Positions 3,672-36,011 of a stretch of 36,661 nt of DNA are shown piece by piece. The stretch comes from a virus. Made by a program: the position numbers and the translations under genes. Within the stretch, counting starts at the first letter, position 1, and each line of letters opens with the position of its first letter. The DNA lies in IMG/VR virus record IMGVR_UViG_3300007539_000064, positions 1 through 36,661 of that record; one strand, 5' to 3'. The notes under the pieces are model-generated. The model made no database searches. It was given only the letters and a program-made list of their open reading frames with translations, and was not told the origin of the DNA.

Positions 3672-6600
3672 TATAGACTTGCAATTTCTCCTGTGTTTTT
3701 AAGGCGTAGTGGAATGTAAATAAACTCAACACTCTTAACTGGTTCGATAGCAACGTCTACATATAGTTCGTTTTTATCTATTCTTGTCGGAGTGTTGTTT
3801 GTTTCGTCACACACAACTAGGTAGTCAAAAATTGCTCTTAGTGATGTAAGTTCAATTAGTAGACTTTCAACTTGTCCTTTGATACTATCTCTGGTAATCT
3901 TATCATTTGGTTCAAAGATAAAAGGTTTAGCAAGTGTTTTAAGTTGACTACGTAAGTAAACTACAAGTCTAGCAACATTAACTCTATCTAGTGAACTTGC
4001 ATTTGCTGCACGAGTTTTTTGTCCAAAGACAACAAGTCCTGCTCCGTTAATAAACGAAATAGGGTTAATATTCTTAGAATATAATGTATCTCTTTGTCCT
4101 TCGTTAAGTGCAACACTTTGGAACTCACCTTCACTTGTGATATATCCTGATGCTGTAGCATTAGTTACACTACCACGTCTTGTGCCTGCTGGAGCAAACC
4201 AGGGGAACGCAACTTGGTCGTTTAATGCAATTGTTCTTAGTGCCATGTGTGATGCTGGAACAACAATGTTGTTTCCTGCGTTATCGCTTGTAAATCCTGC
4301 TGGATAATACATGCCTAAGTATTCATCACTAGTAACTGCACCGTCATCATTATCTTCTACTGCGCCTGCAATGTTGTTTGCCCAGTTTGTTAATGATGTG
4401 CTATCAGGTGTTAGTCTCATTGGAGTATCACCCACAACAAACGCTGTTAATCCACGATCGTTGTTTAGTGTTACCATTTCACCAATAAGTTCTGGATAGC
4501 CTGGAGTTGCAATCAAGTTAAAGATTCTCGATTCGTCATCACGGATATCTTGGTTGCTGTTCATTTCTGCTTGTAACGCTTGTACAACAATTTTACGTTG
4601 TGCTTTACGTCCAAATGATCCTGAACCATCTTCGTTGTTTGCTGATTTTGTTACCCAACGGTTAGCATAGTAGCCTGCCATAGATTCGTCGCCATTACGA
4701 CCGTTTTCAGCATTGATATCAATATGATCACGCTTGAATTCTTTTACGTTGAACCCACTTCTACGTGTATTCCATAGCAACATACCTTTTGGATATAGTG
4801 CTGGATCTGGAGCATCTGGGTCTAAGTAGTTGCTTACTAGTAGATCTGCAATTGTGCCTGCTTCGTCACTGTTTGCACCTGCTGTGTTATAACGTGCATC
4901 TGCAAATAGTACACCGTTTTCAGTTGTTTGATCTGTGTTGTCTAGTAATGCCCAAACACCTGCTGCTGTCCATCTGTAAACTTGTGGATAGTTTTCTAAG
5001 TCTGCTGTTGAAATCCAAAGATCACCAGCAACTAGCGCACTTCCGTCTGACTGTTGTGTTGGAGCACTTGCTGCAACAATCGGTCCTGCTGGATCGTTTG
5101 TGCTACTTGCGCCTACTAAGCCGCCGCCTGTGTGGTCAAAATTATGATAACCAACCCATGATGTACCATTATGAATCATCATGTCTACTTCATCTACTAC
5201 GCTGCTGTACCATAGAGCACCGTCTGCTGGTGTACTTGTAGGTGCACCTTCTGAAGCAGTATATGACAATGCTTTCCACCATGTAACAATATATTGCTTA
5301 GGTGATGTGCTAGAGTCAGTACCTGGTGTGTAATAAAAGTTTGTAGTAGTTGTAGGATCTGTTGAATCAAACACTGTAAATGCGTTATCAACAATGCTGT
5401 CTGTATCAACAATACGAATTTCGCCACCTAGTGCATGTGAAATAACAACTCTGTTTTGTGAATCTACGCTTGCGCTTACATTTGTAAATCCTGCTGAGTT
5501 AATATCACCTGCTAGTGTATCTGCATCCGCAGTTACACCTGCTGCTGTAAACGAAATTGTTTTTGCACTATCCATTGAATCTTGTCCGGATAAACTTTCT
5601 GACATTGTAAATGAATATGTGCCTGCTGGGAATGTAGATGCTGTAATTTTTGCTGATGTAACTGTAACTGCGCCACTTCCGCTCTTACGATAGAGTTTAA
5701 AGTTTGCTAAGTTGTCGTACTCATCTTCACTTGTGTTACTTTGTACATAGATAGCACCTTCTGCAATACCAGCACCGCCGCCTGATGAATCTAATTCATA
5801 GATTGCTTTATGGTTTGTTGGATAAATTTTAGCACTTACAGTTGTCCATGCGTCTGTTGCTGAACTATACTGCTTTACGTTCCAGTTTGCACCTAAGTTA
5901 GGTGTTGTTGTTTTAACCCAAATAGAACCTGTTGGTCTTGGTTGTGTGTCATTTGTTTTGTACTCTGGAACACTTGTATGCGGAGCAATAGTTAATTCTG
6001 GTGAATAATATTCACCAGCTGTAATGCCTAGAGCACTTAACAATGCTGCATCACCAAAAACATCAATCAAGTCGCCCTTGCCGCCAGTTGTACCACCAGC
6101 ATTATATAGTGAAAGTCTTCCGTTGTTATTTTTTGCAGTAACACCTGCGGCTATAAGTCCTGCATCTACATTAATTTGGCTAACCAAAGATGTAACAGTT
6201 GCACCTGTAAGTGTAATTGTATGCTCTGTTGAAGTACTATTTGCTTCTTCAACACGAATAATTAGTTCTTGACCAATTGTTAGTGTTGGATTTGCTGCTG
6301 TACCAGTTACTGCTGGCCAACTTTTTCTCCATGCAGCACCGCCTACTTCTACCCAAGTACCATCTGCATTTTTGTACCATAGTTTGTTAGTAGTTGTAAC
6401 TGCTACTAGTGCATAGTCACCTACAGCACCTACTGATGTTTTTGGTGTATAGTCTGCGCCTGCATAGTCAACAACTTTTGTTGTATCTGTAATTACAGTT
6501 GGAACTTTGTTAGTAAATGTTTGTCCGCCTGTTGTAGTAGCCGCTGCACCGTTCCATTCAAACACACCGTAGAATGAATCATTTGTATCAAACCACCATG

Positions 6601-35151: not shown

Positions 35152-35601
35152 TTATGATTGTCTTGGTAGAGATACACTTAATACTGCGTTTGGTACACCT
35201 GAATCTTCTCTTGCATCTGGATGATTACCAATTTCGTAAATTACATTGTCTGCTTTGTCACCATCTGGAGGTGTAGCAGTACCTTTTGCAGTATTTTCAA
35301 TTTGTACTGTTCTGTTACGAAGTTGTGTTACTTGATAAACTGTTGAGTCAGAACCAGTTGCATCAATTCTAAATGTACCTTCTGGCATACTTCCGTTGCC
35401 TTCTGTTGTTAATTTTAGAACTTCGCCTGCTGTTGGATCTGCATTGTCGCTATCTAAGCGTACCCAGAATTGGTTAGCACCTTTTACTTTGTAAATGTGT
35501 GCTGCTGTAGTTGCTTCTGAACCACCTGTAAAATAGTGACGGCTTACAGCAATTCTACCTGTACCGTATCCTATTTTTGATTTATTAATTGGACGTCCCA
35601 T
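35152..35601 (-). CDS. Conserved marine T4-like virion protein (149 aa)
   Basis: A small structural-type protein opening MGRPINKSKIGYGTGRIAVS, a start that I associate with a conserved virion protein family of marine T4-like phages. The body is beta-rich and basic (YKVKGANQFWVRLDSDNADP, TFRIDATGSDSTVYQVTQLR, RTVQIENTAKG), with a C-terminal VLSVSLPRQS. No enzyme motif. AAGGAG lies 9 nt upstream of the ATG. It is the first gene of the fibre operon, driven by the late promoter at 35683-35691 through an unusually long structured leader. Exact position in the virion is unknown. Confidence 0.75.
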   Translation of the reverse strand: MGRPINKSKIGYGTGRIAVSRHYFTGGSEATTAAHIYKVKGANQFWVRLDSDNADPTAGEVLKLTTEGNGSMPEGTFRIDATGSDSTVYQVTQLRNRTVQIENTAKGTATPPDGDKADNVIYEIGNHPDAREDSGVPNAVLSVSLPRQS

Positions 35602-35678
35602 TTGTTTCTCCTTTTTGACGTTCTAGGTCTACGCGGCGGGCACCGCATAAGTCCTCATCGAGAGGCGCTCCTCTTGAC
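35602..35678 (-). promoter_or_regulatory. GC-rich structured 5' leader of the fibre operon
   Basis: 77 nt from predicted start to ATG, much richer in GC than its surroundings. GAGG-AGCG-CCTC and CCTC-TCGAT-GAGG (35674-35652) compete for the same CCTC, giving two exclusive hairpins; GCGG...CCGC (35646-35633) forms another. A clear AAGGAG follows. Confidence 0.55.
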
Positions 35679-35682
35679 ACAA

Positions 35683-35691
35683 GTATTTATC
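35683..35691 (-). promoter_or_regulatory. Late promoter motif for the fibre operon
   Basis: GATAAATAC on the minus strand, 81 nt before the ATG of the 149-aa gene. It lies 30 bp downstream of the terminator of the non-coding RNA, so the two units are insulated. Confidence 0.75.
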
Positions 35692-35720: not shown

Positions 35721-35755
35721 AAAAAAAGGCCTACTAAAATATAGCAGACCTTTTT
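35721..35755 (-). terminator. Strong rho-independent terminator of the ncRNA
   Basis: Minus strand 13-bp stem AAAAAGGTCTGCT / AGTAGGCCTTTTT with a 7-nt loop, then a run of seven T. Two of the pairs are G-U on the minus strand and would be C-A mismatches on the plus strand, so it is built for minus-strand RNA. Confidence 0.85.
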
Positions 35756-35977
35756 CTATAATATGTGATAGGTTGGACTACTGATTACCAACAACCGCAC
35801 TATGCCCCATCAGGCTCAAAACAGCACGGAACCTCACAATAGAATGGTTAGTTCTACTTTTCCTGCAACTCCTAGTCTCCTAAGTCTTGCAGCGCCACCA
35901 CAGCGTGTGAGTCAAGTTAATGCCTGGGTAAGCATCGTTTCCTTGCACTATCTAACTCGGACCGTCGTCTTTGTTAT
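35721..35977 (-). ncRNA. Candidate structured non-coding RNA (~255 nt)
   Basis: A gene-sized stretch with no credible protein on either strand but a full set of RNA-gene signals: a TTGACA/TATATT promoter, several stable hairpins and a terminator. Stems on the minus strand: CAAG/CTTG around ATGC/GCAT (35945-35913); CACA/TGTG (35909-35899); CTGCAA/TTGCAG enclosing CTTAG-GAGA-CTAGG with a GNRA loop (35892-35863); TAGAA/TTCTA (35856-35840); AGGTTC/GAGCCT (35834-35812); GGTTG/CAACC (35796-35771). At least four pairs across the stems and terminator are G-U on the minus strand, which would not pair on the plus strand. It is not a tRNA, RNase P RNA or tmRNA by visible signatures. Function unknown. 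Confidence 0.7.
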
Positions 35978-35983
35978 GTACTT

Positions 35984-36011
35984 AATATAACATCTAAAAA
36001 AAGTTTGTCAA
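35984..36011 (-). promoter_or_regulatory. Sigma70-type promoter for the ncRNA
   Basis: Minus strand TTGACA (36011-36006), 16-nt spacer, TATATT (35989-35984). The -35 overlaps the TGA stop of the 70-aa gene. Predicted start near 35977. Confidence 0.65.

Follow-up and report, generated by a model that had tools for sequence, protein, structure and literature searches.

The window (the whole stretch of DNA analysed here, 36,661 nucleotides of IMG/VR virus record IMGVR_UViG_3300007539_000064) contains, among its virion genes, a non-coding segment that a preliminary description took to be a dedicated gene for an RNA matching no recognised class. The locus raises two questions: to which family, if any, does the RNA belong, and is it a leader of the virion-module gene downstream or a product in its own right? 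The features of the unit, in order of transcription, are as follows.

36006-36011, minus strand: -35 element TTGACA
35984-35989, minus strand: -10 element TATATT; spacer 16 nt, predicted start at ∼35977
35721-35977, minus strand: predicted stand-alone transcript (manA RNA plus terminator), ∼257 nt, with predicted ends
35762-35971, minus strand: full-length match to the manA RNA model (RF01745), 55.6 bits (gathering threshold 55.2 bits)
35721-35757, minus strand: intrinsic terminator, ending in seven T
35683-35690, minus strand: late-type motif ATAAATAC of the downstream virion-module gene

Identity of the RNA

In an Rfam search, 35971-35762 (minus) is identified as manA RNA, aligned over the entire model (1-192 of 192) with an E-value of 9.8e-12. 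The claim that the RNA fits no recognised class was wrong, by the test of an Rfam match that the preliminary description had itself set. In 2010, the manA family was described from cyanophages, two gamma-proteobacteria and marine sequences as lying mainly in the 5' UTRs of genes for metabolism (PMC2864571), and was proposed as a possible riboswitch, with a pseudoknot that was drawn with a question mark (Weinberg et al., PMC2864571).

As the score exceeds the gathering threshold by only 0.4 bit, the assignment was tested with relatives. These were sought with patterns taken from the manA 3' hairpin, from the window's branch and from the classic branch, each giving more than 100 viral contigs among the matches listed; the first pattern set included some coding DNA, matching by chance. 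The set for the window's branch comprises 55 distinct copies among the matches listed. Close relatives score 50-58 bits, the consensus helices are backed by covariation in the 55 relatives, and the pseudoknot is present in the window as GAUAG/CUAUC, with compensatory variants across branches. Among the conserved unpaired nucleotides of RF01745, GACG, GUGGUG, UAACCA and GGUAnnCAGUAnUCC are kept, while CUGAAUAAaCUU has become AAGGAAACG, with a deletion. A cis-regulatory position in a 5' UTR was not found for the RNA in the window, where, as in most of its branch, a terminator and a late-type motif stand between it and the next gene; this position is the typical location of manA and its Rfam type (Cis-reg), but is not needed for membership by sequence.

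Within the window, no tRNA or tmRNA was found by ARAGORN or Rfam and no GOLLD or ROOL RNA by Rfam; manA alone reaches its cut-off there. Sub-threshold matches to Thr_leader and L20_leader were rejected as terminator-driven or due to chance. AGGA motifs suggested a CsrA-type decoy, which was rejected because these motifs vary between branches. The plus-strand ORF at 35802-35990 (62 aa) has no coding support and is outweighed by the RNA covariation, in agreement with the earlier remark that no frame gives a believable protein. Further downstream, at 35599-35667 (minus), a leader resembling the freshwater-2 RNA (RF02980) scores 43.7 bits, below its cut-off of 49.9, and lies across the beginning of the 149-aa virion-module gene; in L293, a relative scores 58.3, and the signature is kept in 33/49 relatives.

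Promoter, predicted transcript and terminator

The promoter was correctly noted on the minus strand. A TTGAC-type -35 element with a -10 element is found in 55/55 distinct relatives, one of which has TTGAT as its -35. Within the window, TTGACA-N15..18-TATAWT occurs at this site only, on either strand, but dinucleotide shuffles give an expectation of 0.32 per window, so that the site by itself says little and the argument is carried by its conservation.

Terminators were scanned for within 120 nt downstream of the RNA in 52 relatives and 520 shuffles, and were detected in 39/52 and 5/520, respectively. They usually lie 10-15 nt past the pseudoknot, and their arms differ in sequence among relatives with the pairing kept, so the described hairpin with its seven T is conserved as a hairpin rather than as a sequence. 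About a quarter of the window's branch is without a nearby terminator by the scan used. Within 120 nt 3' of the terminator, and ahead of the next gene, ATAAATAC is found at 37/38 terminator-bearing loci, compared with 0.8% of background stretches. The window has six copies of this motif, all on the minus strand, which is the coding strand of most of the virion genes. T4-type late promoters have the sequence TATAAATA, and by analogy ATAAATAC is read as a late promoter.

With its own promoter and terminator, and with a late-type motif further downstream, the RNA appears to be self-contained in the window's branch and not a leader of the virion gene. The proposal of a dedicated non-coding RNA gene is therefore well supported as regards a separate unit with an early-type promoter beside virion genes with late motifs, and fails only as regards its unclassified status. 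No manA transcript data were found in the literature searched, and the text on RNA-seq of P-HM2 does not mention manA.

Fold and covariation

The minimum free energy of 35977-35721 (minus) is -83.4 kcal/mol, which is lower than that of any of 200 dinucleotide shuffles (mean -66.4, sd 4.6; z -3.71), giving a positive outcome to the first check that had been suggested for this locus. Another of the suggested checks, covariation in relatives, was examined in a MAFFT alignment of the 55 distinct RNAs of the window's branch. MAFFT misregistered two blocks (indels) between sequence types and these were shifted by hand to fit the helices, so that the pairing counts lean toward structure: 94.7% of pair cells are standard in the 55 relatives, against 31-35% when the partners are displaced by 1 or 2 columns. 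For every variable helix, shuffled 3' partners pair less than the observed ones, and changes on both sides of a pair are seen in P1, P2, P3, P3a, P3b, P3c, P4 and P5. The elements of the fold, from 5' to 3', are listed below.

35953-35976, minus strand: P1 hairpin, GACG loop; stem pairs covary (GC/AT, AT/GC, CG/AT)
35948-35952, minus strand: pseudoknot 5' strand GAUAG, partner 35771-35767
35913-35945, minus strand: P2, with outer CAAG/CUUG (invariant) and inner GAUGC/GCAUU (covaries, 98.9% paired)
35833-35911, minus strand: P3 multi-branch domain with closing helix CUCACA/UGUGAG; all cells paired (100%), 3 double-change pairs
35893-35905, minus strand: P3a hairpin, loop UGUGGUG; proposed kiss of UGGU with ACCA of P3c
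35863-35892, minus strand: P3b hairpin, GNRA (GAGA) tetraloop; outer part 98.5% and inner part 87.6% paired, 10 double-change pairs
35839-35857, minus strand: P3c hairpin, loop CUAACCA; 99.7% paired, 4 double-change pairs
35795-35829, minus strand: P4 helix, variable interior; 95.9% paired against 73% in shuffles, 3 double-change pairs
35773-35791, minus strand: P5 hairpin UUGG-UAAUCAGUAGU-CCAA; 100% paired, 2 double-change pairs
35767-35771, minus strand: pseudoknot 3' strand CUAUC, partner of the 5' strand GAUAG

Nearly every helix is backed by compensatory changes. The GNRA loop belongs to P3b, and the CTTAG/CTAGG stem is confirmed as the inner part of that hairpin, where it covaries. The AGGTTC/GAGCCT stem is complementary on paper only, and conflicts with the supported helices P3 and P4 (CCGUGC/GUGCGG).

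The pseudoknot is invariant among the 55 RNAs, which is due in part to a search pattern that left no freedom in the 5' strand. Where the 5' strand was left freer, the pairings across the family are GAUAG/CUAUC, UGUAG/CUACA, GGGAG/CUCCC, GGGUG/CACCC and AGGAG/CUCCU, and these five complementary combinations support the helix questioned in 2010. A further contact, absent from the Rfam structure line of RF01745, is suggested by the loops of P3a (UGGU or UAGU) and P3c (ACCA, ACUA or ACUG), which could form four pairs. Across the 55 sequences, the second position (G84-C139) is A-U in 38, G-C in 15 and G-U in the other 2, in columns that largely split two sequence types, so the covariation may rest on few independent events. 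It is proposed from this pattern that the P3a and P3c loops form a kissing loop.

Branches of the family

Scores against RF01745 divide the family into a classic branch (∼155-190 bits), the window's branch (∼37-58 bits) and weaker relatives scoring lower. Most of the window's branch falls below the gathering threshold and is consequently missed by current annotation. The model had no match in 14 control genomes, and a scan of genome contigs gave four short matches of bacterial or phage origin. The gene psbA is present in 4/4 contigs of the classic cyanophage branch and in 0/16 contigs of the window's branch, including two of 257 and 236 kb, so the window's branch probably resides outside cyanophages. 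BLAST searches of named phages with the RNA and with the neighbouring 149-aa protein gave no match, and no isolate belonging to the window's branch was found. The gp23 fragment in the window is 79.5% identical to gp23 of Sinorhizobium phage Phosso and 72% identical to gp23 of Vibrio phage 2.275.O, both jumbo phages. RF01745 has no match in these two, nor in PA5oct and pEa_SNUABM_19, the other jumbo isolates that are nearest by gp23.

In the classic branch, the same scan found a terminator in 19/94 copies. The next ORF is on the same strand in 81/85, often at ∼50 nt, and is commonly gp32, talC or thyX, names which we assign partly by reading the sequences. A leader role may thus apply in the classic branch. 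Other manA-like RNAs lie inside tRNA arrays, and possibly represent a further branch of the family. The one in L157 (1414-1713, minus) scores 30.9 bits, has an insertion of ∼170 nt in the P4 region and stops ∼14 nt before a tRNA gene; others are found in L186, L187, L024 and L156.

Genomic neighbourhoods

In the window's branch the RNA lies mostly between gp23 and a gene starting MGRP; some copies precede a gene which, from reading its sequence, we take to resemble IMP dehydrogenase / GMP reductase, or head a tRNA array. Copies also precede other structured stretches instead of a protein gene. Each of 10 complete cyanophage genomes has exactly one copy, and its neighbours differ. The RNA follows gp23 in S-SSM5, P-RSM4, S-TIM4, P-HM1 and MED4-213, pstS in P-SSM3 and P-SSM4, and a ferredoxin gene in P-SSM7, where a terminator comes after it; it precedes gp32 in P-HM2, where it occupies 4771-4969, and talC in P-RSM6, and is placed between regA and purL/hsp20 in P-SSM2. 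The gene next to it in P-TIM68 is on the opposite strand. The gp23 flank is common to distant manA-bearing phages.

Small hypothetical proteins have been annotated over manA in P-HM2 (PHM2_011/012), S-SSM5 (SSSM5_127), P-SSM4 (PSSM4_169.1), P-HM1 (PHM1_121) and S-TIM4 (ORF_135), and are probably spurious genes.

Several copies are accompanied by other conserved elements. In L115, L282 and L232, a short conserved reading frame (e.g. MFKTNTICIICWPPGDWGMS, by reading) follows manA and is itself followed by a terminator, beyond which lie tRNA genes. In L285, the ∼290 nt at 4382-4670, which separate a manA of the window's branch from tRNA-Gln, appear to be structured, are unclassified and contain a tRNA-like 3' half. 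A common conserved non-coding stretch, CCGAACTGTAAC.AGAAAGGA... or CCTAACTGTAAC..., separates manA from the late-type motif in L289, L196, L245, L234 and L253, and had no Rfam match in the three that were searched. In L293, a glutamine riboswitch match (2024-2070) is found directly upstream of the manA promoter.

Interpretation

The sequence comparisons support family membership, the fold including the pseudoknot, conservation of promoter and terminator, and separation from the virion-module gene. The explanation that we consider probable is that a divergent manA branch forms its own transcription unit, consisting of an early-type promoter, a pseudoknotted multi-branch RNA of ∼210 nt and an intrinsic terminator, and that its product is an early trans-acting RNA. 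Host RNA polymerase would make the RNA early, from the sigma-70-like promoter, and it would be released as a short stable transcript. It would then act in trans via its fold, with a protein or a host RNA machine as the most likely binding partner, and the downstream virion-module gene would be served by its own late-type motif.

The main rival, now weakened, is a riboswitch or attenuator, in which the terminator would be the expression platform of a manA aptamer and would gate early read-through into the virion genes. The terminator directly follows the RNA, as such a device would have it, the classic branch is mostly 5' of same-strand genes, and both the Rfam type and the proposal of 2010 point to cis-regulation. 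However, when relatives were folded, the terminator helix kept a mean probability of 0.98 beside the folded RNA; the two are compatible, giving no sign of a switch, and no mutually exclusive terminator pairing was found. No conserved antiterminator was seen by eye in the relatives, the downstream gene nearly always has its own late-type motif, and other copies precede tRNA arrays or an opposite-strand gene. With an early-type promoter and terminator of its own, here and in dozens of uncultured phages, the RNA is probably no gene-leader switch in this branch, and attenuation is judged unlikely.

Two other roles were considered. The RNA could prime DNA replication, as at the R-loop origins of T4; its occurrence once in each genome, at positions that vary, and its host-type promoter would suit an origin, but the terminator comes so soon after the RNA that an R-loop would have little DNA downstream, and we regard this as very improbable. 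Least probable of all is that the unit is an insulator only, absorbing early transcription or shielding the adjoining late genes, with an RNA product that has no job. Such a function accounts for a promoter and terminator placed between virion genes, but would not call for a fold of 200 nt in which the loops are invariant and almost all helices show compensatory changes.

Returning to the trans-acting RNA, one RNA is found in two genetic arrangements, and most simply it would be its own fold that is selected. Extended to the whole family, this would make manA a class of phage-borne, early, trans-acting non-coding RNAs rather than cis leaders, normally single-copy, mobile among the gp23 flank, tRNA arrays and early operons, common to cyanophages and distant jumbo-like relatives of T4, and sharing a fold in which the pseudoknot has support from covariation and the kissing loop had gone unrecorded. 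To this wider statement we give about an even chance.

The family itself is not new. Within what was searched, what appears to be new is a stand-alone, terminator-closed branch in phages without psbA, the covariation support for the pseudoknot together with the kissing-loop proposal, and a single-copy distribution independent of neighbourhood. Since 2010, manA has been without an assigned function and has been presented as regulating metabolic genes in cis. A branch that ends in its own terminator, and that is found among virion genes or ahead of tRNA arrays on contigs without psbA, moves the question from the metabolite sensed to the role of a stand-alone RNA in infection.

Comparison with known RNAs

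The wcaG, PhotoRC-II and glutamine (glnA) RNAs are, like manA, structured RNAs for which Rfam gives predictions in cyanophages, and in S-CREM1 wcaG and manA are only a few hundred bases apart. They are nonetheless separate families, none of which reached its cut-off in the window. GOLLD and ROOL offer another parallel, as large ornate RNAs of phages and prophages with unassigned function, often near tRNA islands (PMC12286853), and some manA copies likewise adjoin tRNA genes; GOLLD, however, is often >800 nt (PMC12286853), compared with ∼210 nt for the RNA of the window. The closest counterpart is classic manA. The window's branch differs from it in being a terminator-closed unit, in phages without psbA, that scores 37-58 rather than ∼155-190 bits, but the two share the order of helices, the GACG loop of P1, the GUGGUG and UAACCA loops, the GGUAnnCAGUAnUCC 3' hairpin and the register of the pseudoknot.
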